From Methylomarinum vadi (GTDB lineage Bacteria > Pseudomonadota > Gammaproteobacteria > Methylococcales > Methylomonadaceae), in assembly GCF_000733935.1 (NCBI RefSeq), contig NZ_JPON01000001.1:2774501-2838500 (forward strand): a stretch of DNA of 64,000 nt, written 5' to 3'. Under the pieces are notes generated by a model. The model searched no databases and was not told the origin of the DNA. It saw only the letters and a program-made list of their open reading frames with translations. How positions within the stretch are numbered: position 1 is the first letter of the stretch; each line of letters begins with the position of its first letter. The position numbers and the translations under genes are program-made. This document shows positions 41,263 to 63,287 of this stretch, one piece after another.

Positions 41263-41736
41263 ATGTTCAAGCAACTAATTCGTAGGCTGCGACCCGGCCA
41301 AGCCCCAACCATTCGTTTGCCTACCGAAGAAGATAAACTTCGCTTGGTGGAAATCTTCAACGCGGCGCGCCAGTCGGCCGGGTGTTTTAAATGGGTGCCG
41401 ATCGGGTTGGCCGAGTTCAACCGCCAGACCCATGGCGAAGCCATCCATATCGCCGAAGTTGGCGGACACATTGCCGGTTTCGTATCGGTTTGGGAAAAGG
41501 AAGGATTTGTCCACCATCTCTATATTTGTCCCCGCTTTCAGGGCCGGGGTTAGGGCTCCGCTTTACTTAGAATGTGCGAATTGCAATACGGACGGCCGTT
41601 GTCGCTCAAGTGCATCTGCGCCAATGAACGGGCGCTCGGATTCTATCGCCGTCATGGCTGGGTTTCCAAACAGTGCGGCACAGGACCCGATGGGCCGTGG
41701 GAGCGGTTATGGCTGAAGAGTGGACGGCGAAATTAG
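41263..41736 (+). pseudogene. GNAT acetyltransferase interrupted by an amber codon
   Basis: A 157-codon GNAT frame with a good ribosome-binding site (GGAG) has one in-frame TAG at 41551. The frame before and after reads as one protein: RFQGRG, stop, GSALL. This is the acetyl-CoA phosphate-loop motif (normally QGRGxGxxLL) with one residue replaced by a stop. The C-terminal half keeps ANERALGFYRRHGW, the family signature. Without read-through only the first 96 residues are made and the CoA site is destroyed. The clean single change suggests recent loss, a base error, or suppression. Confidence 0.8.
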
Positions 41737-41871
41737 CTGGATTGTCCCGTAATTAGTCGCAAGAGACTGAATTGGCCGATTTGACTGCGGCTCGTTGCAA
41801 CACCGATTGCTTGACTGACGATTTAGCGTTTAAGATTAAAGCAGCGGTTAAGCAAAATGTGGGGTAATGGC

Positions 41872-42939
41872 ATGGGCGATGCGATTCGAGTTGTGGTGCT
41901 TGGGACCGGGCAGATGGGGGCCGGCATCGCCCGCTTGCTTCTAACAAAGCCGGCTCTACAACTGGTCGGCGTATATGCCAGAAGAACCGAGCGCCAGGGC
42001 CTCGATTTAGGCATGGCGATTGGCTTGGATCGGGAGCTTGGCATCGCAATTACCACCGATCTAACCGAATTACTCGCGCAAACACGGCCGCAAATCGCGT
42101 TCCAGGCAACCTGTTCGACACTGCAAGATGCTTGGCAGGAGCTGGCCATGCTGATTGAACACGGCGTTGACGTTATTTCGATCGCCGAGGAAATGGCCTA
42201 TCCTGCGGCGACTTCTCCGGTCAGGGCAGTGCAATTACAGCGGCTTGCCATCGAACACGGCGTTTCGCTGCTAGGCACCGGCGTCAATCCCGGTTTCGTG
42301 CTGGACTTATTGATCATCACGCTGACCGGCGTCTGCGCCGAGGTCGAGAAGATCACGGCCACGCGCGTCAACGATTTGTCTCCGTACGGCCCTACCGTAT
42401 TGCGGGAACAAGGCGTCGGCCTGACGCCGCAGGATTTCGAACGAGGAGTCAATGAGGGCAACGTGGTTGGTCATGTCGGTTTCGAACAATCGCTGCAAAT
42501 GATCGCGGCCGCGCTGGGCTGGCAGCTGGAGCGGATCGAACAAACGCGCGAGCCCATAATCTCGACAGTGATCAGGCAAACGCCTTTCGTTACGGTCGAG
42601 CCCGGCCAGGTGGCCGGTTGCCTGCATACAGCCACAGCCTATCGAAATGGCAAAGCCGTCATTCAGTTGATTCATCCGCAACAAATCCTTCCCCAACTGG
42701 AAGGCGTCGCAACCGGCGATCGTATCGAGATCAGAGGTTCTCCGAACATCAACCTGGCGGGAAGTCCCGAAATACCCGGGGGGCTGGCCACCCAGGCCTT
42801 GGCGGTCAACATGATTCCTCAAGTTGTGCAGGCCGCTCCCGGCCTCTATTGCATGGCCGACCTGCCGGTGCCGGCGGCGATGCCGGGCGGCGCCGGTTTC
42901 CGGAGTTTCAGGCACGCTACATCGGGAGAACAGGCATGA
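41872..42939 (+). CDS. ord: 2,4-diaminopentanoate dehydrogenase
   Basis: About 355 residues. The N-terminal Rossmann motif is VLGTGQMGAGIARLL, followed by GTGVNPGF and a C-terminal HPQQI region as in the Ord family (DapB-like fold). It oxidises (2R,4S)-2,4-diaminopentanoate to 2-amino-4-oxopentanoate with NAD(P)+ and releases ammonia. ATG at 41872 follows GGGG with 7-bp spacing and is preferred to the ATG at 41857. It is the first gene of a seven-gene coupled operon and overlaps ortA by 4 bp. The assignment is strengthened by all pathway partners being adjacent. Confidence 0.88.
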   Translation: MGDAIRVVVLGTGQMGAGIARLLLTKPALQLVGVYARRTERQGLDLGMAIGLDRELGIAITTDLTELLAQTRPQIAFQATCSTLQDAWQELAMLIEHGVDVISIAEEMAYPAATSPVRAVQLQRLAIEHGVSLLGTGVNPGFVLDLLIITLTGVCAEVEKITATRVNDLSPYGPTVLREQGVGLTPQDFERGVNEGNVVGHVGFEQSLQMIAAALGWQLERIEQTREPIISTVIRQTPFVTVEPGQVAGCLHTATAYRNGKAVIQLIHPQQILPQLEGVATGDRIEIRGSPNINLAGSPEIPGGLATQALAVNMIPQVVQAAPGLYCMADLPVPAAMPGGAGFRSFRHATSGEQA

Positions 42940-43253
42940 GCGAGCGAATCGAAGCGGGCGTCTGGGTCGAGATTCACGACATCGTTTTGGAAGCGGGAGA
43001 ACGGGCGCCGCAGGTGCCGGAAGATACCGCGCGCATCCCGTTGGAGATGAGGGTCAAGGGTTTTTTGAGCGAACCCGCCGAATTGGGCGGGGAAGCCGAG
43101 ATCGTCACCGCGGCCGGCCGTCGTCTGCGCGGCAAGTTGGTTGACGTCAATCCGGCCTATCGGCACGGCTTCGGCCCGCCGATTCCGGAACTGTCGACGA
43201 TAGGGCGGGAGTTGCGCACCTTGCTGGGGCAACGGGAGATAAGCGATGACTAG
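42936..43253 (+). CDS. ortA: 2-amino-4-ketopentanoate thiolase alpha subunit
   Basis: A 105-residue protein from ATG at 42936, overlapping the ord stop. It shows the OrtA pattern WVEIHDIVLEAGERAPQVPEDT, then MRVKGFL and a C-terminal HGFGPPIPEL. It is a non-catalytic small subunit of the thiolase that cleaves 2-amino-4-ketopentanoate with CoA into acetyl-CoA and D-alanine. It overlaps ortB by 8 bp. It is too short to be recognised alone with certainty, but its place between ord and ortB is diagnostic. Confidence 0.86.
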   Translation: MSERIEAGVWVEIHDIVLEAGERAPQVPEDTARIPLEMRVKGFLSEPAELGGEAEIVTAAGRRLRGKLVDVNPAYRHGFGPPIPELSTIGRELRTLLGQREISDD

Positions 43254-44661
43254 TTATCAGGCCGTCATGGCGCAGCGTAACGAGATCATGCGTCAGTCGG
43301 TCGGCATCGATTATCGAAAATACGCGACCGGCGTGTTGGCCTTCGATTATGAAGCGCTTATGGCCGATACCGGTTACGATCTGGAGCGCGTCCGCCAAGT
43401 GCAGCAAAGAACCGCGGTCGGCGACACGCCGTTGGTGGAATTAAAAAATTTGACCCGGCTTTTGCGGCTGTTTTCCAAACCGGGATATGGTGCGCGGTTG
43501 TTCGTCAAGGACGAGGCGGCCAACCCTTCCGGCTCGTTCAAGGACAGGCGGGCCTCGCTGTCGGTGTTCGAGGCCAAGCGGCGCGGTTACCCTGGCGTGA
43601 TCGCGGCGACCAGCGGCAACTACGGTGCGGCGATCGCGTCGCAGGCGGCCAAGGCCGGCTTGCGCTGCATCATCGTGCAGGAGGCCTTCGACAGCCGGGG
43701 CATCGCCCAGCCGGAAATCGCGGAGAAGACCCGTGCCTGCGAAGCCTACGGCGCCGAGGTCATGCGTCTGTCGGTCGGACCGGAGCTGTTCTACCAGTTT
43801 CTGAAGTTATTGAAAGAGACCGGTTATTTCAACGCCTCGTTGTACACGCCCTATTCGATCCAGGGCATTGAGACACTGGGTTACGAGCTGGCGCGGCAAG
43901 TGCGCGAACAAGAGCATGTTTATCCCGACGCGGTGGTCGTGACCCATGCCGGCGGCGGCAATCTGACCGGCACCGCGCGCGGCTTGCTCAAGGTCGGCGC
44001 GAACGAAACCGAGGTCATCGCCGCCAGCGTCGATCTGTCCGGCCTGCACATGGCCTCCGACCACGACTTCAACCGCAAGTCGTTCACGACCGGTCACACT
44101 GGTTTTTCGCTGCCGTTCACGACCTGGCCGGATAGGGCCGATGTGCCGCGCAATGCGGCCAGGGCCTTGCGTTACATGAACCGCTTCGTGACCGTGACCC
44201 AGGGCGAGGTGTTCTACATTACCCAGGCGTTGGCCGAGCTGGAAGGCCTGGAGCGTGGACCGGCAGGCAACACCTCGCTGGCCGCGGCCTTCGTTATTGC
44301 CCAGCAATTGCGGCAAGACCGGATCGTCGTCGTGCAGGAGACCGAATACACCGGCGCCGGCAAGCATCCGTTGGCCCAGTTGAATCTGGCCAAGCGCATG
44401 GGCATAGCCATCAGTCGCGGCGATCCCAAAACGTCGAAGCCCGGACAAAGCATCGTCATACCCGAAACTCCCGCGCAACTGGATGTCGTCGACGTCGACC
44501 TGCAGCGGGTGCGGCGCTCCTATCTGCAGCACGCCCTACAATCTGAGGATAAAGAAGCTAAACTGACGGAAGCCGATTACACCTTTCTGGCCGAGGAGAC
44601 CCGGTTGGATATCACCAACGTAAAGGAGATCTGCGATGAGTTCATTGGACAGGCCCGATGA
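43246..44661 (+). CDS. ortB: 2-amino-4-ketopentanoate thiolase beta subunit
   Basis: A 471-residue PLP enzyme of the threonine-synthase-like fold II type. The Schiff-base Lys is in NPSGSFKDRRA (about residue 100), followed by the phosphate-binding loop ATSGNYGAA and VVTHAGGGNLTG. OrtB with OrtA performs a PLP-dependent thiolysis, unlike normal Cys thiolases. The last 26 bp overlap oraS. It is adjacent to all other genes of the oxidative ornithine route. Confidence 0.9.
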   Translation: MTSYQAVMAQRNEIMRQSVGIDYRKYATGVLAFDYEALMADTGYDLERVRQVQQRTAVGDTPLVELKNLTRLLRLFSKPGYGARLFVKDEAANPSGSFKDRRASLSVFEAKRRGYPGVIAATSGNYGAAIASQAAKAGLRCIIVQEAFDSRGIAQPEIAEKTRACEAYGAEVMRLSVGPELFYQFLKLLKETGYFNASLYTPYSIQGIETLGYELARQVREQEHVYPDAVVVTHAGGGNLTGTARGLLKVGANETEVIAASVDLSGLHMASDHDFNRKSFTTGHTGFSLPFTTWPDRADVPRNAARALRYMNRFVTVTQGEVFYITQALAELEGLERGPAGNTSLAAAFVIAQQLRQDRIVVVQETEYTGAGKHPLAQLNLAKRMGIAISRGDPKTSKPGQSIVIPETPAQLDVVDVDLQRVRRSYLQHALQSEDKEAKLTEADYTFLAEETRLDITNVKEICDEFIGQAR

Positions 44662-44989
44662 CTTCGAGACCCGCCGCGAGCATTTGCGCGAGCTGTCGGA
44701 CGAGGCGCTGCATGCCCGCTTTTGGCACTTGGTTCAGGGCATCGTCGAGCCGCTGGTCGAGGAAGCGCGCACTCACACCAGCCCCGGCATCGAGCGCTCG
44801 GTGCTATTGCGCATGGGTTTCACCAGCGCCGAGGCCAAGCAGCTGATCGACGGCATGCAGGAACAAGGTTTACTCGGCCACGGCGCGGGACATTTGCTGC
44901 TGCAGTTGGCCAAGCGCAACAACTTGACGGTGCGGGAAGCCGGCGAAGCCCTGTTGCAAGGCGACTATTGGGGGGAGTTGCAACCATGA
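44636..44989 (+). CDS. oraS: D-ornithine 4,5-aminomutase small subunit
   Basis: A 117-residue helical protein with the OraS pattern DDFETRREHLRELSD at the N-terminus and LLLQLAKRNNLTVREAG near the end. AAGGAG precedes ATG at 44636. With OraE it forms the adenosylcobalamin- and PLP-dependent mutase that moves the terminal amino group of D-ornithine to C4. The stop overlaps the oraE start (ATGA), which would couple subunit stoichiometry. Confidence 0.92.
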   Translation: MSSLDRPDDFETRREHLRELSDEALHARFWHLVQGIVEPLVEEARTHTSPGIERSVLLRMGFTSAEAKQLIDGMQEQGLLGHGAGHLLLQLAKRNNLTVREAGEALLQGDYWGELQP

Positions 44990-47178
44990 AACTCGACCCG
45001 GACAACAAACTCGATATCCTCGAAGTGCTGCAAGACCTCGAACACTACCGGCCGCGGCGCAAGGGCTGGGTCTGGCGCAAGCACGTCCCCGAGCAACGCA
45101 TCGGCCCGTTCGTCTACCAGGACAGTTCCGAAAATCTGAAAAACTCGGTGCCGCTGCCGGCCGCGGAATATTTTTCCGATATCGATCCCCAGTGCGACCT
45201 GATCATCACCACCGAAATCGCCTCCGGCCGCTTCGAGGACGATTTGCGCCGCATGCGCATGGCGGCCTGGCACGGCGCCGACCACATCATGGTGATCCGC
45301 ACCACCGGCCAGTCCCATATCGACGGTCTGATCGAGGGCACGCCGGAAGGCGTCGGCGGCATTCCGATTTCGCGCAAGCAGATCCGGGCGTCGCGCAAGG
45401 CGCTCGACGCCATCGAGGACGAGGTCGGCCGGCCGATCAATTTCCATTCCTACGTCAGCGGCGTCGCCGGCCCCGAGATCGCCGTGCTGTTCGCCGAGGA
45501 GGGCGTCAACGGCGCGCACCAGGATCCGCAGTACAACGTGTTGTACCGCGACATCAACATGCACCGCTCCTTCGTCGACGCGGCCGAATCGAAAAAGATC
45601 ATGGCCGATGCCGGCATTTTACAGCTCGACGGCGCGCACAACGCCAACGCCACCGCCAAGGAGGCGTGGAAGGTGACGCCGGAGCTGTTCGTGCAGCATG
45701 CCGTCAACACCGCCTATTCTATAGAAGCCGGCATGGACGCCGGACAGATCGCGCTGTCGACGGTGCCGCCGACAGCGCCGCCGGCGCCCAAGCTACGCCT
45801 GGACCTGCCCTATGCCGTCGCGCTACGGGAATTGTTCGAAGGTTACAAGTTCCGCGCCCAGCAGAACACCCGCTACATGGAGGCGGACACCCAAGAAACC
45901 ACGGTGTCGCATGTGCTCGACACGCTGATCTCCCGGCTGACCGAGACCGATATTCAGAGCACGATTACGCCAGACGAGGGCCGCAACATCCCCTGGCATT
46001 ACAATAACATTGCCGGCGTCAATACGGCCCGGCAGACGCTGATGGGCCTGGACGGCCTCGACCAACTGCTTGAAGTCAAGCAGGACGGACCATTTCGGGA
46101 GCAGGTGCGCGAGCTGAAGGAAAGAGCGTTATTGTTTCTTGAGGAAATCTTGGATGCCGGCGGCTATTACACGGCGGTCGAGGCCGGGCAATTCGTCGAT
46201 TCCGGTTATTATCCCGAGCGCAAGGGCGACGGCATCGTGCGCGAGCCCGACGGCGGCGATTGCGCGAATACCGTCATTGCCCGCGAAGACGACTACGGCG
46301 CGCCGGTGTGCAGTCATTTCGGCCGTAACAGCTATGCCGACAAGGCTGGCAAACCCTGCGCCGATTACGGCGGCTGTACGCTGTGCGATCCCGCCAAGAT
46401 TCGCTATATCGACGAGGTCGACGACGAAGACAACGTGCTGCAGCGGCTCAAACAGCCTCTGGCCGAACGGGAGCAGGGCTTGCTGCGTCCCGAGGTCGAG
46501 AAGCACGGCGACGGCGTCGTCTGCCTGACCTTGTTCATCCCGGACGAACCGCATACCGCCAAGCAGGCGGCGCTGGAGCTCGCCCTGCACATGGGACTGA
46601 ACAATCCGGAAGTGATCAACCAGCGCATCATGCATCCGGCCGAAGGCAGCCTGTTCGAAATCAAGGGCACGGTCGACCTCTATATCGAAAAGCAGGCGCT
46701 GCCGGCGTACAGCCAGATCCGGCCATTAACGGATAACGAGATCGAAGCATGGGTGCGGCCGCGCGACATCCACATCGTCGCGGCGACGGTGGGCGAGGAC
46801 GAGCACACCGTCGGCCTGCACGAGATCCTCGATATCAAGCACGGCGGCATCGAAAAATATGGTTTTCATTGCCATAACCTGGGCTCGTCGGTCTCCATCG
46901 AACAGGTGCTGGATAAAGCCGAAGAGACTGATGTTGGCGCGGTGTTGATCTCGGTCGTGATCACCCATGCCGATGTCCATAAGCAGCACATGCGCAATCT
47001 GGCCCGTCAGGCCAGCGAGCGCGGTTTAGCCGGCAAGGTGTTGTTGATTGCCGGCGGCCCCCGCATCGACGATAAGCTGGCGCGCGAATGCGGACTGGAT
47101 GCCGGCTTCGGCCACGGCGCCACCGGCCGCGAGGTCGCCAGTTTCATGGTGCGCCGCTGGCGCGAACAAGCCGCCTAA
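44986..47178 (+). CDS. oraE: D-ornithine 4,5-aminomutase large, B12/PLP-binding subunit
   Basis: A 730-residue protein from ATG at 44986; the frame stays open further upstream inside oraS. The N-terminal TIM-barrel region carries the OraE sequence RIGPFVYQDSSENLKNSVPLP and HADHI-like loops (GADHIMVIRTTGQSH). The C-terminal Rossmann domain has the cobalamin motif DEHTVG with the lower-ligand His (about residue 605), and a following HNLGSSV. Length and motifs match the clostridial enzyme. It requires adenosylcobalamin made or imported elsewhere. GC content is high and codon use matches neighbours, so any transfer is not recent. Confidence 0.95.
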   Translation: MKLDPDNKLDILEVLQDLEHYRPRRKGWVWRKHVPEQRIGPFVYQDSSENLKNSVPLPAAEYFSDIDPQCDLIITTEIASGRFEDDLRRMRMAAWHGADHIMVIRTTGQSHIDGLIEGTPEGVGGIPISRKQIRASRKALDAIEDEVGRPINFHSYVSGVAGPEIAVLFAEEGVNGAHQDPQYNVLYRDINMHRSFVDAAESKKIMADAGILQLDGAHNANATAKEAWKVTPELFVQHAVNTAYSIEAGMDAGQIALSTVPPTAPPAPKLRLDLPYAVALRELFEGYKFRAQQNTRYMEADTQETTVSHVLDTLISRLTETDIQSTITPDEGRNIPWHYNNIAGVNTARQTLMGLDGLDQLLEVKQDGPFREQVRELKERALLFLEEILDAGGYYTAVEAGQFVDSGYYPERKGDGIVREPDGGDCANTVIAREDDYGAPVCSHFGRNSYADKAGKPCADYGGCTLCDPAKIRYIDEVDDEDNVLQRLKQPLAEREQGLLRPEVEKHGDGVVCLTLFIPDEPHTAKQAALELALHMGLNNPEVINQRIMHPAEGSLFEIKGTVDLYIEKQALPAYSQIRPLTDNEIEAWVRPRDIHIVAATVGEDEHTVGLHEILDIKHGGIEKYGFHCHNLGSSVSIEQVLDKAEETDVGAVLISVVITHADVHKQHMRNLARQASERGLAGKVLLIAGGPRIDDKLARECGLDAGFGHGATGREVASFMVRRWREQAA

Positions 47179-47181
47179 ACG

Positions 47182-48282
47182 ATGGCTTATCCGTTGCTCG
47201 ACATCGACCTGGACAAGATCGAACATAACGCCAGGGTCATCGTCGAGCTGTGTTCGGCGCACGGAATCCGGGTCAGCGGCGTGACCAAGGTCGTCTGCGG
47301 TCATCCGGCGGTAGCGGCGGCGATGCTGCGCGGCGGCGTCGCCGGCCTGGCCGATTCCAGGATCGAGAATATCCGCCGCATGCGCGCGGCCGGCATAGAC
47401 ACGACTTTCATGCTGCTGCGGCTGCCGGCGTTGTCGAGGGTCGACGAGGTCAGCGACTGCGTCGATATCAGTCTGAATTCCGAGCTCGAGACGTTGCAAG
47501 CCTTGTCGGCCTCGGCGTTGCGCCGCGGCAAGGTTCACGACATGATCCTGATGATCGATCTGGGCGATTTGCGAGAAGGCGTCTGGCCCGATCACGCCGT
47601 CGAGCGTGCCAAGGCCTTGGTGCCATTGCCCGGCATTCGCTTGCAAGGCATCGGCACCAACCTGGCCTGTTTCGGCGGCCTGATGCCGACTCATGCCAAT
47701 ATGCTGTCGTTGGTCGAGCTGGCCGGTGAAATCGAGCGGGCCTGCGAAATCGATCTCACATGGATCTCGGGCATCAATTCCAGCGGTCTGAATTTGCTGG
47801 TTGAGGAAGGAATGCCGGAGCGCGTCAACCACGCCCGCATCGGCGAGGCGATCTTGCTGGGGCGGGAAACGACCGAGCGAAGCCCCTGGCCGAATACCTA
47901 TCAGGACGCCTTCATATTGCAAGCCGAAGTGATCGAGTTGAAGCGAAAGCCGTCGGCATTCGCCGGCGAGCATTGCGAGGACGCCTTCGGCGGCCATCCC
48001 CATTTTGTCGATCATGGCAACATCCTGCACGCCCTGGTCAACGTCGGCCGGCAGGATGTCGCCGTCGAAGGCATCACGCCGCAGGAAGCGTTGACTGTCA
48101 TCGGCGCGTCCAGCGATTATCTGGGCCTCGACGTATCGGCGCTGGCCGGCCGCATCGAGATCGGCGATATCCTTTCTTTCAATCTCAATTACGCCGCGCT
48201 GTTGGCGGCGATGACGTCGGCCTATGTCGAAAAGCGTTGTGTCCGGGGCCGATTGTTCGACGACAGGGTCCTATATGCCTAG
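47182..48282 (+). CDS. orr: Ornithine racemase
   Basis: A 366-residue fold III PLP protein related to alanine racemase but with its own N-terminus (DLDKIEHNARVIVELC) and PLP-lysine region VTKVVCGHP. The segment INSSGLNLL and the loop RIGEAILLGRE are typical of the Orr branch. It converts L-ornithine to D-ornithine, the substrate of OraSE. It starts 3 bp after oraE and overlaps alr by 8 bp. The context removes doubt that could arise from its similarity to other racemases. Confidence 0.9.
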   Translation: MAYPLLDIDLDKIEHNARVIVELCSAHGIRVSGVTKVVCGHPAVAAAMLRGGVAGLADSRIENIRRMRAAGIDTTFMLLRLPALSRVDEVSDCVDISLNSELETLQALSASALRRGKVHDMILMIDLGDLREGVWPDHAVERAKALVPLPGIRLQGIGTNLACFGGLMPTHANMLSLVELAGEIERACEIDLTWISGINSSGLNLLVEEGMPERVNHARIGEAILLGRETTERSPWPNTYQDAFILQAEVIELKRKPSAFAGEHCEDAFGGHPHFVDHGNILHALVNVGRQDVAVEGITPQEALTVIGASSDYLGLDVSALAGRIEIGDILSFNLNYAALLAAMTSAYVEKRCVRGRLFDDRVLYA

Positions 48283-49405
48283 AACTGATGATCCTAGCCG
48301 CCTGACCAAGGTCTATCTGCATCTGGACCGTTTGGCCGACAACATGCGACTGCTTCAGCAACAGGCCGGCGGGCGGGAATTGTGGCCCTGTATCAAGGCC
48401 AATGCATACGGCCACGGCGCCGATATTATCGCCCGTCATCTTTACCGGCTCGGTTACACGACGTTTTGCGTCGCCGATGTCGGCGAGGCGATGGCGTTGC
48501 TCGATGCCGGTGTGGACGCGACCTTCATCGTGCTGTCGGCGATGCTGACGGAACATATTCCGGCCCTGGTTAAGTACGGCTGCGAACCGGTGCTGTGCAC
48601 GCACGAATTGGTCGACGCGTTGGCCGAAGAGGCCGAACGCCGCGGCAAACGCATCGCCGTGCATATCAAGGTCGATTCCGGCATGGGACGGATCGGCATC
48701 AGGCCCGAACAATTGCCCGAATTCGTGTCCCATTGCCGCGCTCGGCCGTCGTTGCGGTTGCGCGGCATCATGAGCCATTTCGCCTGCGCCGACGAGGAGG
48801 ACAAGGCTTTCTCTTATCGCCAAATCGAGAATTTCAATAACGCCCTCGCTCAAACGCAATGCGATAGTCTGGTGATCAGGCACATGGCCAATAGCGCGGC
48901 GATCTTCGATCTGCCCAAGGCCGGTTTCGACGCGTGCCGGCCGGGCATATCGATCTATGGCTTGCGCCCTTCCCACGACATCCTCAATCCCGCCGTGAAT
49001 CATCTGAAGCCGGTGTTGGAATGGAAAACCCGGATCGTGTATCTGAAGGAGGTTGCCTCTGACTTCGGCCTCAGTTACGGCCGCACATTTATCACGGACA
49101 AGCCGTCGTTGATCGCGACGGTTCCGCTCGGCTACGGCGACGGTTTTAGCCGTCGCCTGTCCAATAACGTCGACTTGCTGATCGGAGGCCAGCGATGCCC
49201 GCAGGTCGGCCGCATCACGATGGACATGAGCCTGGTCGACGTGACCGAACTACGCGGAACCGTCAACATCGGCGACGAAGCGGTCATCATCGGCGAGCAG
49301 AACGGCCTGGAAATCGGCGCCGACGAGTTGGCGGCAAAACTCGGCACGATCAATTACGAAATCGTCACCGCCATCTCCCAGCGCTCGCCGCGAATCGTCG
49401 TGTAG
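48275..49405 (+). CDS. alr: Alanine racemase
   Basis: A 376-residue fold III racemase. The PLP Lys is in CIKANAYGHG (about residue 34). Also seen are SGMGRIG, RPGISIYG, the second catalytic Tyr region VPLGYGDGF, and MDMSLVDVT. ATG at 48275 overlaps the orr stop by 8 bp. In the ornithine pathway OrtAB yields D-alanine, so an alanine racemase in the operon would return it to L-alanine for transamination or protein synthesis. It may be additional to a cell-wall alr elsewhere. Confidence 0.9.
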   Translation: MPRTDDPSRLTKVYLHLDRLADNMRLLQQQAGGRELWPCIKANAYGHGADIIARHLYRLGYTTFCVADVGEAMALLDAGVDATFIVLSAMLTEHIPALVKYGCEPVLCTHELVDALAEEAERRGKRIAVHIKVDSGMGRIGIRPEQLPEFVSHCRARPSLRLRGIMSHFACADEEDKAFSYRQIENFNNALAQTQCDSLVIRHMANSAAIFDLPKAGFDACRPGISIYGLRPSHDILNPAVNHLKPVLEWKTRIVYLKEVASDFGLSYGRTFITDKPSLIATVPLGYGDGFSRRLSNNVDLLIGGQRCPQVGRITMDMSLVDVTELRGTVNIGDEAVIIGEQNGLEIGADELAAKLGTINYEIVTAISQRSPRIVV

Positions 49406-49508
49406 GAGCGCCGCCCCGGCGCGAACAGCAATGTTATTAATGATTTTGATCACTATGAAGATCATGAAGGCCATGAAGCGACTTTCAACCGGATCGATGA
49501 ATCATGTA

Positions 49509-49537
49509 GGGTGCTGCTGAACGCAGTGAAGCGCACC
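49509..49537. repeat. Isolated REP-like inverted repeat
   Basis: An imperfect inverted repeat GGTGCTGC...GCGCACC around a GAACGCAGTGAA centre, in the 214-bp gap between alr and arcB. It resembles intergenic palindromes that occur in many copies in related genomes. The rest of the gap contains no further recognisable element. Confidence 0.45.
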
Positions 49538-49619
49538 AAGCCTCTAGGCAATCCAAACGTTTGCTGTTAGATTCAACTTATCACGGATAGTGTGATTAGA
49601 ATCCAAACGGGAGGCGGCC

Positions 49620-50618
49620 ATGCCATTCAACTTACGTAAACGCAATTTTCTGAAACTGCTCGACTTCAGCGCCGAGGAAATTACCTATCTGATCGATCTT
49701 GCCGCGCGGTTGAAGGCGGACAAGGCGGCAGGCAACGAACAACAAAGGCTCAAGGGCAAGAACATCGTGTTGATCTTCGAGAAGGATTCGACCCGCACCC
49801 GCAGCGCCTTCGAGGTCGCGGCCCACGACCAGGGCGCCCTTGTGACTTATATCGGCCCGACCGGTTCGCAGATCGGCGTCAAGGAGTCGATGCGCGATAC
49901 CGCGCGGGTATTGGCGCGCATGTTTGACGGCATCGAATACCGCGGCTTCGATCAAGCGACCGTCGAAGAATTGGGAAAACACGGCGTGCCGGTCTGGAAC
50001 GGTCTGACCGACCAGTATCATCCGACCCAGGTGTTGGCCGATTTGCTGACAATGAAGGAACATTGCGAAAAGGAGCTGGCCGAGATCGGCTTCTGCTTCA
50101 TCGGCGACGGCCGCGGCAACATGGCGACATCGCTGATGGTGGGCGCGGCGATTTTAGGCATGGACTTCCGTCTGGCGGCGCCGGCCGAATTGCAGCCGAA
50201 CTCGGATTTGCTGGCCAAATGCCGGGAATTGGCCGAACGCCGCGGCGCGCATTTGTCGATCGGCGACGACAAGGAAGCCGCGGTTAAAGGCGTCGATTAC
50301 ATCTATACCGATGTCTGGGTGTCGATGGGGGAACCGGAGGCGGTCTGGGCGGAACGGATACGCTTGCTGGGGTCTTATCAGGTTGATCGGCGGCTGATGC
50401 AAGCCACGGGCAATGCCGACGTCAAATTCATGCATTGCCTGCCGGCTTTCCACAACCGGGAGACCAAGGTCGGCGAGGAAATCTTTCAGAAGTTCGGCCT
50501 GGACGGTATCGAAGTCAGCGAAGAGGTGTTCGAATCGCCGGCCTCGATCGTGTTCGACCAGGCGGCCAACCGCATGCATACGATCAAGGCGGTGTTGGTC
50601 GCGACGCTGGGCGATTGA
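49620..50618 (+). CDS. arcB: Ornithine carbamoyltransferase, catabolic type
   Basis: A 332-residue enzyme with carbamoyl-phosphate motif [16 protein letters not shown], and the ornithine-site motif HCLPAFH. Overall wording ([13 protein letters not shown] at the start, [18 protein letters not shown]-like end [11 protein letters not shown]) follows ArcB of P. aeruginosa rather than the shorter anabolic ArgF. It catalyses citrulline phosphorolysis to ornithine and carbamoyl phosphate in the catabolic direction. The next gene is carbamate kinase, 1 bp away, and the previous operon uses ornithine. No arginine deiminase is present in the window. Confidence 0.9.
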
Positions 50619-50619
50619 G

Positions 50620-51558
50620 ATGCGAATCGTCGTCGCCTTGGGCGGCAATGCGCTGCTGCGCCGCGGCGAGGCATTGAGCGCCGCCAATCAACGCCATAAT
50701 GTACGCATCGCGGCGCAGGCCATCGAGCCGTTGGCGCGTGAACACGACCTGATCATCACTCACGGCAACGGCCCGCAGGTCGGCTTGCTGGCCTTGCAGG
50801 GCGCTGCTTATAAAGAAGACGAAGCCTATCCGTTGGATATACTCGATGCCGAAACCGAGGGCATGGTCGGCTATTTGATCGAGCAGGAGCTGAGCGCTTT
50901 GTTGCCGCCGCAACGTCAGTGCGCGACCTTGCTGACCCAGATCGAAGTGGATGCCGAGGATGCCGGTTTCGAGCATCCGACCAAGCCGATCGGACCGTTT
51001 TATCCGCTGGAACAGGCCGACAAGTTGGTGCGTGAGCGGGGCTGGAGCATCGTCCGCGACGGACCGCATTGCCGCCGCGTCGTCCCGTCCCCGAAACCGC
51101 AACGCATCCTGGAATTGGGCGTCATAGAATTGCTGCTGCAGCAGCATGTCGTCACGATCTGCGCCGGTGGCGGAGGCATTCCGGTCGTGCGGCGGCAAGA
51201 TGGAAGCCTGGAAGGCGTCGAGGCGGTCATCGACAAGGACCTGGCCAGCTCGCTGCTGGCGCGGGAACTGCGAGCCGATGCGCTGTTGCTGTTGACCGAT
51301 GTCGATGCCGTTTATACGGATTGGCCTTGCGAACAAGGCAAAGCCATCAAACGCATCTCGCCCGAAGCCTTGCGCCGCTTTTCCTTCGCCCCCGGTTCGA
51401 TGGGGCCGAAAGTCGAGGCCGCCTGCCGCTTCGTCGAGCAGACCGGCGCCATCGCCGGCATCGGCAGGTTACAGGATGCGGGCAAAATTCTGATTGGCGA
51501 AGCAGGGACAATGATAGGCAGGGATGCGGAGGAAATTGAGTATTGGGAAAGCCGTTGA
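50620..51558 (+). CDS. arcC: Carbamate kinase
   Basis: A 312-residue amino-acid-kinase fold protein with ALGGNAL at the N-terminus, ITHGNGPQVG, the specific PKPQRILE segment, CAGGGGIPVV, DKDLASSLLA and FAPGSMGPKVEA. It transfers phosphate from carbamoyl phosphate to ADP, giving ATP, ammonia and CO2. ATG at 50620 begins one base after the arcB stop. It provides substrate-level ATP from citrulline. Confidence 0.94.
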   Translation: MRIVVALGGNALLRRGEALSAANQRHNVRIAAQAIEPLAREHDLIITHGNGPQVGLLALQGAAYKEDEAYPLDILDAETEGMVGYLIEQELSALLPPQRQCATLLTQIEVDAEDAGFEHPTKPIGPFYPLEQADKLVRERGWSIVRDGPHCRRVVPSPKPQRILELGVIELLLQQHVVTICAGGGGIPVVRRQDGSLEGVEAVIDKDLASSLLARELRADALLLLTDVDAVYTDWPCEQGKAIKRISPEALRRFSFAPGSMGPKVEAACRFVEQTGAIAGIGRLQDAGKILIGEAGTMIGRDAEEIEYWESR

Positions 51559-51699: not shown

Positions 51700-52290
51700 T
51701 CCATCATAAGGTTTAAACCACCGGCTTTAGCCGGTCAGCTTTAGCTGCGATAATTTGCCCAAGGAGGTGGCGATGGACTATAGATACGGCAGCCATACGG
51801 TTTACCAAATTGAGTATCATTTTGTTTGGGTTACGAAGTATCGTTATAAAGTGCTGAAGGATGAAATAGCCGAACGAGTGAGAGACTTGGTGCGGCAGAC
51901 ATGCGAAGCCTTTGAGATACGGATTATCAAAGGTGTCGTGAGCAAAGATCATGTGCACATTTTGGTGAGTGCGCCGCCGACTATGGCCCCAAGCGAAATC
52001 ATGAGGCGAATCAAGGGACGAACTTCGAGCTATCTGTTCGAAGAGTTCCCGCACTTGAAAAAGCGATATTGGGGTCGACATTTTTGAGCCCGCGGTTATT
52101 TTTGCGCCACAGTGGGGCAAATGACTGATGAGATGATAAAGCAATATTTGGAGCATCACTTTGAACCTAATCCAAACGATAATTTCAAGATGGAGCCCGA
52201 CTAAGACGCGTCGTTTAGTCGACGCGTATCCGGACTTTCAGTCCGTTATTGGAACCCACCCGCTTGAGCGGGTGGTTGTTTAGTCAAGCA
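51700..52290 (+). mobile_element. IS200/IS605-type insertion element
   Basis: A single-gene element with subterminal hairpins and no terminal inverted repeats, as for IS200. Left-end hairpin ACCGGCT / AGCCGGT at 51720-51735. Right-end hairpins lie at 52206-52227 (ACGCGTCG / CGACGCGT), 52231-52245 and 52256-52275 (CCACCCGC / GCGGGTGG). It lies between two copies of the REP-type repeat. Exact ends are estimated. Confidence 0.75.
51773..52204 (+). pseudogene. tnpA: IS200/IS605 transposase TnpA with opal codon
   Basis: A Y1-transposase frame of 144 codons with a strong AAGGAGG ribosome-binding site. The metal-binding HxH is in DHVHIL (about residue 63). An in-frame TGA at 52085-52087 replaces the Trp normally found in the RHFWARGYF motif. 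The sequence after the stop is intact and contains the putative catalytic Tyr in IKQYLEHH. The truncated product (104 residues) therefore lacks the nucleophile and should be inactive unless the stop is read through. A single base change explains it. Confidence 0.85.
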
Positions 52291-52610: not shown

Positions 52611-53954
52611 TTATCGCAAGTTTCTTTCCGTTAGGAACGACTCGATCAGGCTGCTCAAGGCAGGTTCCCCAACTTCGGCGAAGCGGTAATCGACACGCAG
52701 CACCGGTTTGTCGATCTCTATCAAGGATGCCAAATCGCAGGGGGTCGCGACGATGACGGCATCGGCATCGGCCCGGTTGATCGTTTCCTGCAAGGCGTGT
52801 AATTGCTCGGCATGATAGCCCATTGCGGGCAACACCTTACCGATATGCGGGTAGGTGCGGTAAACCTCGGCGATCTTATCGGCCGCGTGCCGGCGAGGGT
52901 CGACGATCTCGCCCGCCTGGGCCTGAATGGCCGCGACATAGCCGGCGCCATAAGGCATCCCTCCGTGGGTGATGGTGGGGCCGTCCTCGACCACCAGCAC
53001 CCGTTTTCCCCTCACGGATTCGCCATTATGCAATTGCACCAGCGACGCGCCGCGCACGATCGTCGCTGTGGGATTGATGCGGCGGGCGGCCTCGGTGGCG
53101 CTTTGAATGTTGGCTTCCGACGCGGAATTGACCTTGTTGACCAAGACGATATCGGCCATGCGCAATACCGCTTCGCCGGGGTGATGGGTGTCTTCGTCGT
53201 CGGGGCGCAGCGGGTCGACCAGCACGATATGCAGGTCGGGGCGGATGAAGGAGAAATCGTTATTGCCGCCGTCCCATAAAATCACGTCGGCCTCGTTTTC
53301 CGCCAGGGCGACGATCTTGGCGTAATCGATACCGGCATAGACGATGTTGCCCAGTTGCAGATGCGGTTCGTATTCCTCCCGTTCCTCGATAGTGCAGTCT
53401 GCGTCGGCCAGGTCCTCGCGGGTCGCGAAGCGCTGCACGGCTTGCCGTTCCAGATCGCCGTAAGGCATCGGGTGGCGGATCACCGCGACACGCAGGCCGT
53501 GTCGTTTCAATAGATGGGAAAGCCATTGCGTCGTCGGCGATTTGCCGCAACCGGTGCGTACCGCGCAGCAGGCGATCACCGGCACTTTCGCCGTCAGCAT
53601 GGTCCGATTCGGACCCAGCAGGACGAAGTCGGCGCCGGAGGCCAAAACGATCGATCCTTTATGCATGACTTCGACATGGAGGATGTCGCTATAGGCGAAC
53701 ACGACTTGATCGATCCGCCTTGCCCGGCACAGGTCGGGTAATTCGCTTTCCTCGACGATCGGAATGCCGTCCGGATAAAGCGGACCGGCCAAAGCCGGCG
53801 GATAACGGCGGCCGGCGATATCCGGGATCTGCGCGGCGGTGAAGGCGACCACCTCGTAGTCGTCATCGTCGCGATAGACGATGTTGAAGTTGTGAAAATC
53901 GCGACCGGCCGCGCCCATGATGGCGATACGTTTTCTAAATTCTTTCTTTGCCAT
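52611..53954 (-). CDS. Cyclic-2,3-diphosphoglycerate synthetase-like GTPase
   Basis: A 447-residue P-loop protein. The N-terminal Rossmann-like half begins IAIMGAAGRDFHNFN. A P-loop TGCGKSP lies near residue 134, followed by a DGGNNDFSF segment, an LVNKVN nucleotide-specificity motif and an HGGMPYGAG loop. It resembles archaeal cyclic 2,3-diphosphoglycerate synthetase, but the bacterial members have no proven role, so I do not assign that activity. It is convergent to arcBC and lies between the ornithine operon and the N-ATPase operon, which suggests a link to energy or carbamoyl phosphate metabolism. This link is speculation. Confidence 0.75.
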   Translation of the reverse strand: MAKKEFRKRIAIMGAAGRDFHNFNIVYRDDDDYEVVAFTAAQIPDIAGRRYPPALAGPLYPDGIPIVEESELPDLCRARRIDQVVFAYSDILHVEVMHKGSIVLASGADFVLLGPNRTMLTAKVPVIACCAVRTGCGKSPTTQWLSHLLKRHGLRVAVIRHPMPYGDLERQAVQRFATREDLADADCTIEEREEYEPHLQLGNIVYAGIDYAKIVALAENEADVILWDGGNNDFSFIRPDLHIVLVDPLRPDDEDTHHPGEAVLRMADIVLVNKVNSASEANIQSATEAARRINPTATIVRGASLVQLHNGESVRGKRVLVVEDGPTITHGGMPYGAGYVAAIQAQAGEIVDPRRHAADKIAEVYRTYPHIGKVLPAMGYHAEQLHALQETINRADADAVIVATPCDLASLIEIDKPVLRVDYRFAEVGEPALSSLIESFLTERNLR

Positions 53955-54484: not shown

Positions 54485-54617
54485 GCAGGTCGGGCAACCG
54501 CTTTTCGTTGCCCGACGAATTGGCGCCGACAATCGGGACAATAGCGGAAATACCGAGCGTTTCGCCCGATTGAAGCATCGGTATTGTCGGGCATAAAAAG
54601 CATGCCCGACCTACGCT
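54485..54617. repeat. REP-type repeat, copy 3, flanking the RAYT gene
   Basis: Left hairpin GTCGGGCAAC / GTTGCCCGAC at 54489-54516, right hairpin GTCGGGCAT / ATGCCCGAC at 54586-54610, joined by about 70 bp with further short palindromic blocks. It lies at the 3' side of the RAYT gene. Confidence 0.82.
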
Positions 54618-55155
54618 ATTCTCCAAACGACTCGTCGCCTCCGGTTTCAGTGATTACGGTCCAATTCGAGGGATATACTCCGAGTCGTACGAAACGATGA
54701 AAGCTCGAATGCGGCCATGCGCCGGGATGTGGCGCCAGGCCATGTTTGACCGGATTCCAGTGAATGTAATCGCAATGTTTTTCGAAATCCCGGTCGTCGC
54801 GAATTTGATGTTCCCAGTAGCGTGGTTGCCAAACGGTTTGCGCCCTTTTGCGTCGTTGGGCCGGGGAGACGGGTGATTTATAGTCATCCGGACAGCGGCG
54901 GGTAAAATAATTTTTTATTGCGTTCCAGCGCATCGGGTAATTGTTGTCCCCCGGCGGTAGCGTCCAAATACAATGTAGATGATCGGGCAGCAGCACAAAA
55001 GCATCGATCTTGAAAGGGTGGGCCGATTTCACGGTTCGAAAGGCCGCACGTAATAAATCGACATTGTCCGGCGTACAAAGAATTTTCCGTCGTCGAAACG
55101 TCACCACGGTGAAAAAGTACGTGCCACCGGGAGTTTGTGCGCGACGGTAGTGCAT
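54616..55155 (-). CDS. REP-associated tyrosine transposase (RAYT)
   Basis: A 179-residue Y1-type protein from ATG at 55155; the frame continues upstream into the REP copy. It starts MHYRRAQTPGGTYFFTVVTF, the RAYT hallmark. HxH metal motif in DHLHCIW (about residue 60) and catalytic Tyr in DYIHWNPVKHG (about residue 137) are intact. RAYTs act as single-copy housekeepers that bind and mobilise REP palindromes. The gene is bracketed by two REP copies (54485-54617 and 55173-55305), the classic arrangement. Related to IS200 transposases but domesticated. Confidence 0.9.
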   Translation of the reverse strand: MHYRRAQTPGGTYFFTVVTFRRRKILCTPDNVDLLRAAFRTVKSAHPFKIDAFVLLPDHLHCIWTLPPGDNNYPMRWNAIKNYFTRRCPDDYKSPVSPAQRRKRAQTVWQPRYWEHQIRDDRDFEKHCDYIHWNPVKHGLAPHPGAWPHSSFHRFVRLGVYPSNWTVITETGGDESFGE

Positions 55156-55172
55156 AGCAAGCGTTCTCTTAA

Positions 55173-55305
55173 GTAGGTCGGGCAACCGCTTTTCGTTGCC
55201 CGACGAATTGGCGCCAACAATCGGGAAAGTAGCGAAAATACCGAGCGGTTCGCCCGATTGAAACATCGGCATTGTCGGGAATAAAAAGCATGCTCGACCT
55301 ACAAG
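55173..55305. repeat. REP-type repeat, copy 4, flanking the RAYT gene
   Basis: Left hairpin perfect at 55177-55204. The right hairpin at 55274-55298 is degenerate (GTCGGGAAT / ATGCTCGAC). It lies immediately upstream of the RAYT start, on the opposite side from copy 3. Confidence 0.8.
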
Positions 55306-57963: not shown

Positions 57964-61711
<3,748 letters not shown>

Positions 61712-62305: not shown

Positions 62306-63016
62306 ATGTTGACGAATCCAGACCAACTCATCCTGTGGCAATACGGCATCATCAAGATCAATGCGACGCTTGCCTTTACTTGGGGCGTCATGGCGTTGTT
62401 GGCGCTAGTCAGCTATATCGTAACCCGGCGTCTGGCTGTCGACCCGCCGTTGACGAAGATGCAGAATCTGTTGGAAGTAATCGTTTTTCACGTCAATCTG
62501 CAGATCCGGGAAATCAGCCGGCAACGGCCGCTGCGTTATTTGCCCTTGATCGGGACGCTGTTTTTGTTCATCCTGCTGTCCAATCTGTTGGCCATCGTGC
62601 CCGGCTATATACCGCCGACCAGCTCCCTTTCGACCACAACCGCGCTGGCGCTGTGCGTGTTCGTCGCGGTGCCGGCCTACGGTATCAGCCAGATCGGTTT
62701 GTGGAATTATTTGAAACAATACTGCCGCCCCACTTTTTTCATGTTGCCGTTCAACATAATCGGCGAATTCACCCGTACATTGGCCTTGGCGGTCCGCTTG
62801 TACGGCAACATCATGAGCGGCGTCGTGATCGGCGCGATATTCTTGAGTTTCGTGCCGTTCTTCTTTCCGGTACTGATGCAGATCCTCGGCTTGCTGACCG
62901 GCACGATCCAGGCCTATATTTTTTCCGTACTGACGATGGTCTATATCGCCTCGGCCATCCCGCCCCATGACGATAAGGAATCCAAGAATAAAACTCCAGG
63001 AGACAAACATGAATGA
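62306..63016 (+). CDS. atpB: N-ATPase subunit a
   Basis: A 236-residue protein with five or six membrane helices. It starts at ATG 62306 behind GGAGG; the frame continues upstream inside atpR. It has PTSSLSTTTALALCVF and the key Arg region FTRTLALAVRLYGNIMSG, with the essential Arg near residue 164. It forms the ion half-channels with the c ring. It overlaps atpE by 8 bp. Confidence 0.92.
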   Translation: MLTNPDQLILWQYGIIKINATLAFTWGVMALLALVSYIVTRRLAVDPPLTKMQNLLEVIVFHVNLQIREISRQRPLRYLPLIGTLFLFILLSNLLAIVPGYIPPTSSLSTTTALALCVFVAVPAYGISQIGLWNYLKQYCRPTFFMLPFNIIGEFTRTLALAVRLYGNIMSGVVIGAIFLSFVPFFFPVLMQILGLLTGTIQAYIFSVLTMVYIASAIPPHDDKESKNKTPGDKHE

Positions 63017-63287
63017 ACTCAGCCTGATCGGCATGATGTCGATCTTTACCGCCGGCATTACTATCGCGATCGGCTCCATCGGCCCCGCTTTTGGTGAGGC
63101 ACGGGCGCTTGCGCAAGCCCTGGCGGCGATAGCGCAGCAGCCGGACGAAGCCAACACGATCACACGCACCTTGTTCGTCGGCCTGGCCATGGTCGAATCG
63201 ACCGCGATCTACTGTTTGGTCATCTCGATGATCCTGATTTTCGCCAATCCATTCTGGGAATACGCGGTCGCCCATGCCGGAGGCTGA
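63009..63287 (+). CDS. atpE: N-ATPase subunit c
   Basis: A 92-residue two-helix proteolipid. Helix 1 contains GPAFGEARALAQAL, with Glu at the position of the Na+-ligand Gln32 of Ilyobacter. Helix 2 contains VESTAIY, keeping the Na+-type Glu, Ser, Thr and Tyr ligand set. The loop is AQQPDE, close to the usual RQP. The two carboxylates match known two-carboxylate Na+-coupled c rings and N-ATPase c subunits. Na+ coupling is predicted, not proven; some N-ATPases were reported as H+-coupled. Confidence 0.92.
   Translation: MNELSLIGMMSIFTAGITIAIGSIGPAFGEARALAQALAAIAQQPDEANTITRTLFVGLAMVESTAIYCLVISMILIFANPFWEYAVAHAGG

Follow-up and report, generated by a model that had tools for sequence, protein, structure and literature searches.

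The oxidative breakdown of ornithine is best known from amino-acid-fermenting anaerobes, the closest described systems being the gene cluster of Clostridium sticklandii/Acetoanaerobium and the oraSE operon of C. difficile. According to the available portions of two reports, C. difficile has no arginine deiminase while all later steps are present (PMC3091704), and its oraSE and argF mutants are at a competitive disadvantage (PMC8803604). Catalysis by the clostridial ornithine mutase is described as having been measured anaerobically in the available part of PMC4413051, and adenosylcobalamin (AdoCbl) radical enzymes are described as being at risk of inactivation in the introduction of PMC4256349. 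Here we analyze the ord-ortA-ortB-oraS-oraE-orr-alr operon of the gammaproteobacterium Methylomarinum vadi, located in a stretch of 64,000 nucleotides (NZ_JPON01000001.1, positions 2,774,501 to 2,838,500 of the forward strand; hereafter the window). The operon is real, complete and conserved. We consider it likely that the operon and the two genes downstream of it (41872-51558) constitute a module for the oxidation of citrulline and/or ornithine in a methanotroph, inherited as a unit and probably spread by horizontal transfer.

The six pathway proteins and the gene order ord-ortA-ortB-oraS-oraE-(...)-orr are shared with the clostridial cluster as read in Acetoanaerobium noterae (locus L168), and the key residues of OraE are likewise the same in the alignment to the solved C. 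sticklandii structure 3kow. In contrast, Acetoanaerobium carries its own MutL-family gene (L168, 11181-12605) between oraE and orr where the window has none, while alr and the genes for ornithine carbamoyltransferase (OTC) and carbamate kinase (arcC) are present in the window only, without a match in the 20-kb L168 stretch. Identity to the window proteins amounts to 58% for OraE and 38% for Orr, and a fermenter as host is replaced here by a methanotroph. The enzymes and the pathway itself are known; what is new is the MutL-free arrangement including alr, OTC and arcC, which is mostly proteobacterial and is seen here in a methanotroph. The literature searched (titles and abstract openings, with partial coverage) yielded no report of the pathway in a methanotroph or another proteobacterium, and no priority is claimed.

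Operon structure and enzyme assignment

As proposed in a preliminary description of this DNA, the seven operon genes are adjacent, intact and arranged in the stated order on the plus strand. The second OTC gene starts 214 bp after the end of alr, and together with arcC it belongs to the same inherited block as the operon:

41872-42939, plus strand: ord, 2,4-diaminopentanoate dehydrogenase (NCBIfam NF040740, 466 bits, cut-off 400; Pfam DAP_DH_C)
42936-43253, plus strand: ortA, 2-amino-4-ketopentanoate thiolase, small subunit (NF040739, 123.8 bits, cut-off 70; Pfam OrtA)
43246-44661, plus strand: ortB, 2-amino-4-ketopentanoate thiolase, pyridoxal 5'-phosphate (PLP) subunit (NF040741, 795.7 bits, cut-off 550)
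44636-44989, plus strand: oraS, D-ornithine 4,5-aminomutase, small subunit of 117 aa (Pfam OAM_alpha, 154 bits, cut-off 29.7)
44986-47178, plus strand: oraE, D-ornithine 4,5-aminomutase, large subunit using AdoCbl and PLP (NF040743, 1193 bits, cut-off 800)
47182-48282, plus strand: orr, ornithine racemase by homology and position (NF040742, racem_Orr, 391.8 bits, cut-off 480)
48275-49405, plus strand: alr, alanine racemase (TIGR00492, 320.9 bits, cut-off 168)
49620-50618, plus strand: second copy of the OTC gene, ornithine carbamoyltransferase (NF003286, 540 bits, cut-off 515)
50620-51558, plus strand: arcC, carbamate kinase (TIGR00746, 372.5 bits, cut-off 358.25)

From ord to oraE the genes overlap by 4, 8, 26 and 4 bp, followed by a 3-bp gap between oraE and orr and an 8-bp overlap of orr and alr, so that the overlaps of 4-26 bp described for almost all genes apply to five of the six junctions. 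An alternative ATG for ord lies at 41857. Ord, OrtA, OrtB and OraE are assigned as ornithine-pathway enzymes, with all four scoring above ornithine-specific NCBIfam equivalog cut-offs; oraS gave no NCBIfam match and was recognized by Pfam OAM_alpha only.

OraE matches 3kow over residues 3-728 of 730 (E = 1.5e-287). The DEHTVG cobalamin motif noted previously is present at residues 605-610, and its H607, which we take to be the equivalent of the cobalt ligand His618 of the C. sticklandii enzyme, is H in 86 of 87 alignment rows, with K618 being K in 86 and E331 being E in all 87 (missing cells are gaps). In the alignment to 3kow, E331 and K618 pair with Glu338 and Lys629 of C. sticklandii OraE, numbered as in the available parts of PMC4256349 and PMC4413051. 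The key PLP and B12 residues of OraE are therefore intact by alignment. The expected PLP lysine of OrtB, Lys99, is found in 72 of 75 rows, with truncation at this position accounting for the remaining three. Lys36 of Orr is K in 52 of 52 rows.

Four cysteines of OraE (C442, C458, C464, C467) form a conserved quartet resembling a metal site, which was considered as a gammaproteobacterial novelty. This idea was rejected, as the cysteines occur in 86, 86, 87 and 81 of the 87 rows, respectively, with row L106 keeping C464 only. The crystallized C. sticklandii OraE retains only the third of the four (C464 in the 3kow alignment), and given their near-universal occurrence it is the crystallized type that represents the exception.

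A mostly proteobacterial OraE lineage without a MutL-family gene

A scan of named genomes confirmed at least 557 OraE relatives, of which the best 80 were kept, a selection that favours sequences similar to that of the window. These 80 carry labels of many phyla; the pathway, described from fermenting anaerobes as the preliminary description had it, is not confined to clostridia. A tree of 87 rows (the window, six further loci and the 80 loci kept) and a more careful tree of 41 rows drawn from these and Acetoanaerobium both placed the window's OraE inside an 18-member clade, with a support of 100 in the Shimodaira-Hasegawa-like approximate likelihood ratio test (SH-aLRT) for the former and of 100/100 for the latter. 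The clade comprises seven rows of the host's class (window included), eight further rows labelled as Pseudomonadota (gamma, Nitrosomonas, one alpha and one unspecified), two Myxococcota and one Gemmatimonadota. Window OraE shares 90% identity with the sequence of a congener and 73-77% with four other sequences of the class, two of them partial, compared to at most 65% with Bacillota among the best 80 of the at least 557 relatives.

A role as reactivating chaperone is ascribed to MutL. The MutL-family gene (PF13941) that may be expected between oraE and orr is lacking in the window, where the 3-bp gap is found instead. A profile built from 44 such locus genes was applied to loci extending 1450 bp or more beyond oraE and matched 47 of 57 loci outside the clade, in 33 cases immediately downstream of oraE under a strict criterion and otherwise elsewhere in the locus or in an earlier-opening frame. 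Twelve non-clade loci were left out because they end too soon; with them included, 55 of 69 match. In contrast, no match was obtained in the 18 clade loci, 17 of which have sequence after oraE (L031 ends inside the gene). The spacing between oraE and orr could be measured in 15 fetched clade loci, where it ranges from -4 to 146 bp; in 25 of 36 others it is 1334-1495 bp (gene starts chosen by script).

Genome-wide searches extended this picture. PF13941 had no match in the host genome (G000), and none above the cut-off in seven clade genomes (G293 has a sub-cut-off match), while two of eleven further clade genomes, G571 (of L037) and G574 (of L040), exceeded it and G578 stayed below. Altogether, 16 of 18 clade genomes lack PF13941 above the cut-off, compared to its presence in all six comparison genomes. 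Against the ornithine-locus profile, the two exceptions scored 177 bits (at a contig end) and 323 bits, with 689 bits for Acetoanaerobium, which is outside the profile. As several clade genomes are incomplete bins, single absences are soft evidence; both congeners carrying the operon are rated 100% complete.

The rows closest to the clade in the OraE trees are a Desulfobacterales bin (L043), an Olavius-associated proteobacterium (L044), a Spirochaetales bin (L047) and a proteobacterial bin (L048), the last of which also has orr followed by alr. They differ from the clade by a MutL gene, which all four genomes contain; at the locus itself it is found in L044, L047 and L048, while the L043 sequence extends 118 bp beyond oraE. 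Taken together, the term "clostridial-type" used in the preliminary description is wrong in detail: the locus belongs to a separate, mostly proteobacterial clade and has no MutL-family gene.

Beyond this, we tentatively suggest, at rather less than even probability, that a distinct and mostly proteobacterial ornithine 4,5-aminomutase lineage functions under oxygen and independently of any MutL-family ATPase, by means of either a more robust mutase or a substitute nucleotide-binding protein. Candidate residues for a robust mutase would be positions such as L214, T231, I335 and D425, which are invariant within the OraE clade and uncommon outside it in the 87-row alignment. Two observations weigh against a strict link between clade and MutL loss, namely the MutL-family gene held elsewhere in the two clade genomes mentioned above, and the ten of 57 non-clade loci that are also MutL-free at the locus (an Acetothermia, two Riflebacteria, one bacterium, two spirochaetes and four Actinomycetota).

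For the substitute option, the recurrent neighbour downstream of arcC is conceivable as a protein maintaining the mutase:

52611-53954, minus strand: P-loop protein related to cyclic 2,3-diphosphoglycerate synthetase (cDPGS)

Its gene has a tblastn relative in six of 17 clade loci and eleven of 69 others, and it recurs across several phyla in loci of this pathway, frequently adjoining OTC or arcC. The predicted model (mean pLDDT, the predicted local distance difference test, of 89) has as its top fold match 8oru, the cDPGS of Methanothermus fervidus, at a template-modelling score of 0.48, and a profile of 14 homologues gave a local match to another cDPGS entry, 9sxb (E = 3.3e-10). The model also has weak predicted fold matches (E of about 2e-3 to 4e-3) to MeaB-like G proteins, MeaB being a B12-chaperone G protein. 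PADLOC returned no match for the protein. However, the neighbour is present in MutL-containing loci as well (for instance L059 and L065), which weakens the substitute option, and the 19-kb stretch of the operon-bearing congener (G066) yielded none; a role as MutL replacement proper was therefore dropped.

The data give no indication of new chemistry, and the pathway occurs widely; the loss of MutL is a sharper question than the one first posed. A natural MutL-free version in a methane oxidizer makes two questions accessible to experiment, namely what aminomutases gain from the MutL-family ATPase and how an oxygen-using cell runs a pathway of fermenters.

Co-inheritance, spread and selection

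Quick, unrooted trees of the single genes, from which script limits excluded rows whose matches were short or weak, separated the clade rows from all others by a single branch for ord (14 rows, support 95), orr (16, 98), oraS (16, 91), OTC (8, 99) and arcC (11, 89), and weakly so for alr (13, 79). In the ortB tree, the 15 clade rows are joined by one further proteobacterial row, L048 (support 89). The phylogenetic check suggested earlier for OraE, OrtB and Ord thus groups OraE and Ord with the mostly proteobacterial clade, whereas OrtB takes in this one extra row. With its OraE inside the fully supported, mostly proteobacterial clade, the operon is no recent clostridial import. The mixture of classes within the clade, the patchy distribution in the genus and the differing surroundings of the operon point to transfer among proteobacteria instead of a recent clostridial donor, with the caveat that bins may hold stray contigs.

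The alanine racemase gene had been regarded as a special addition for handling the D-alanine product. This view was abandoned, since a relative of alr occurs in 14 of the 17 fetched clade loci and also outside the clade, in 14 of 69 OraE loci. The operon-side OTC gene accompanies the operon in both genus members that carry it and is absent from the four that do not, and it occurs in all five operon-bearing genomes of that comparison; this second OTC is presumably catabolic.

Spread by plasmids was considered and dropped, because the plasmid collection PLSDB holds a single OraE record, on an Acetoanaerobium replicon of 2.6 Mb. This A. noterae replicon (NZ_CP154629.1, L168) carries a plasmid label in PLSDB and is of chromosome-like size. 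In a bin, locus L046 (5906-7676) shows an ord fragment and an ortB split over two frames, a copy that may be decaying or misassembled.

The block could alternatively be a recently acquired and unused passenger. A G+C content of 61% for the operon versus 53% for the window, IS200-type and REP-type transposase genes nearby, and the absence of the operon from four of six genus members would fit such an origin. However, all nine frames are intact, and the copies of the two congeners are separated by 0.6-1.1 synonymous changes per site (dS) at ratios of nonsynonymous to synonymous changes (dN/dS) of 0.09-0.22 for all nine genes, indicating that these are under purifying selection in both. The third-position G+C of the operon genes (0.66-0.81) overlaps that of several other window genes, and composition alone is therefore weak evidence. 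We consequently regard an unused passenger as unlikely.

Host, proposed pathway and entry substrate

The host was previously thought to look aerobic or facultative, and its genome supports an aerobic life: the pmoA product scores 488 bits against particulate methane monooxygenase A versus 268 bits at best against ammonia monooxygenase, so that by inference the host is a methanotroph and presumably aerobic. A pmoA match was found in the host and the five other searched genomes of the genus (above the cut-off in five of the six), and none in five operon-bearing genomes of other genera in the same search. The pathway is indeed unusual in such a host, with OraE above the family cut-off in two of 201 genomes of the host-family sample, both of one genus, in two of six genomes of the host genus and in six of 369 genomes of the class sample (own genome included each time). 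A weaker family-wide OraE signal (E ≤ 0.001) is seen in 43 of the 201 genomes and is mostly partial, covering the C-terminal B12-binding part. The suggested demand for AdoCbl would plausibly be met by the genome itself, as it carries cobA and an overlapping cobB.

We infer that the enzymes are expressed, function with oxygen and act in the direction of degradation, in the following order. OTC would convert citrulline and inorganic phosphate to L-ornithine and carbamoyl phosphate, from which ArcC would form ATP, CO2 and NH3 with ADP. L-Ornithine would be racemized to D-ornithine by Orr and rearranged to 2,4-diaminopentanoate by OraSE through AdoCbl- and PLP-dependent radical chemistry; Ord would then yield 2-amino-4-ketopentanoate, NADH and NH3, OrtAB would release acetyl-CoA and D-alanine, and Alr would convert the latter to L-alanine. 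The predicted output of the module is acetyl-CoA, alanine, ammonia, NADH and ATP, and citrulline or ornithine might thereby supply a methanotroph with ATP, reductant, acetyl-CoA and ammonia, a benefit expected to be greatest when oxygen or methane is short.

As in the arginine deiminase pathway (arcABC), OTC lies beside carbamate kinase, whereas no ArcA was found in the host genome. Neither arginine deiminase (TIGR01078, PF02274) nor arginase (PF00491) gave a match in the host genome or in the operon-bearing congener; arginine therefore appears unlikely as a direct feed in these two, and citrulline or ornithine is probably the entry substrate, a situation resembling that described above for C. 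difficile. This argument does not extend to the whole clade, because PF00491 (arginase/agmatinase family) exceeds its cut-off in the clade genomes G284, G293, G414 and G485, although not in G408, and PF02274 weakly so in G293 and G570.

Several of these observations weigh against the proposed module, among them the family matches just named and, with regard to the supply of substrate, the missing arginine deiminase and arginase themselves. To our knowledge, methanotrophs are generally held not to grow on amino acids, and no ornithine or citrulline transporter was recognized beside the operon, whose flanks were not annotated systematically. OTC and arcC are found in only eight and ten of the 17 fetched clade loci, respectively, several of which are truncated at contig ends, and alr is absent from L035, besides being a fragment in L028 and cut in L041. 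Moreover, the surroundings of the operon differ between the two congeners in the stretches compared, and Orr scores below the cut-off of racem_Orr, its best NCBIfam model, so that the protein is named by homology and by its place in the operon.

The same gene set could in principle run in reverse, as an alternative synthesis of ornithine and citrulline from L-alanine and acetyl-CoA via Alr, OrtAB, Ord (by reductive amination), OraSE, Orr and OTC, with carbamoyl phosphate supplied by ArcC. The genes required are all present, with those for Alr, OTC and ArcC adjoining, and no arginine deiminase or arginase that would feed the forward route was found in the host genome. We consider reverse operation distinctly unlikely, since another, presumably biosynthetic OTC occurs in all six genus genomes and the operon-side copy is thus not needed for arginine synthesis, and since systems already described for these enzymes operate in the forward direction according to the available portions of PMC8803604 and PMC3091704.

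It is also highly improbable that the operon serves mainly another diamino acid or that the substrate of Orr and OraSE has shifted. The low score of Orr and the clade-fixed OraE positions named above would be in line with such a shift, whereas OraE, Ord, OrtA and OrtB all pass their ornithine-specific equivalog cut-offs. D-Lysine 5,6-aminomutase (KamDE) uses the same B12/PLP chemistry as ornithine aminomutase and is related in sequence, with OraE matching KamD/KamE models and structures at low score. The lysine models stay far below their cut-offs on OraE (154 and 153 bits versus 600 and 280), and the window encodes one large E subunit and the 117-aa S subunit. Contamination of the assembly from another organism, for which one could cite that several relatives come from metagenome bins with partly surprising labels (Nitrosomonas, Gemmatimonadales), has next to no probability, given a host genome of one contig (4,335,162 bases) rated 100% complete and the same block on a 4.4-Mb contig of the congener.

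Additional features of the window

Rfam at gathering thresholds and a tRNA search gave no matches in the window. Between 41000 and 54600, nine promoter-like sites compare to 5.8 ± 2.4 in shuffled sequences and 14 terminator-like sites to 14.0 ± 4.1. Just 5' of ord, a frame resembling a GNAT acetyltransferase (41263-41553, plus strand) ends early and appears to be a gene remnant. An IS200/IS605-type transposase gene (51755-52087, plus strand) lies between arcC and the cDPGS-like gene, and its antisense open frame recurs in two other genome stretches (L033, 4668-5114; L167, 3294-3740), while a REP-associated tyrosine transposase gene (54616-55272, minus strand) is located near the edge of the island. 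Further downstream, subunits beta and c of an alternate F1F0-type ATPase are encoded at 59923-61326 and 62967-63287 on the plus strand, both above their cut-offs.

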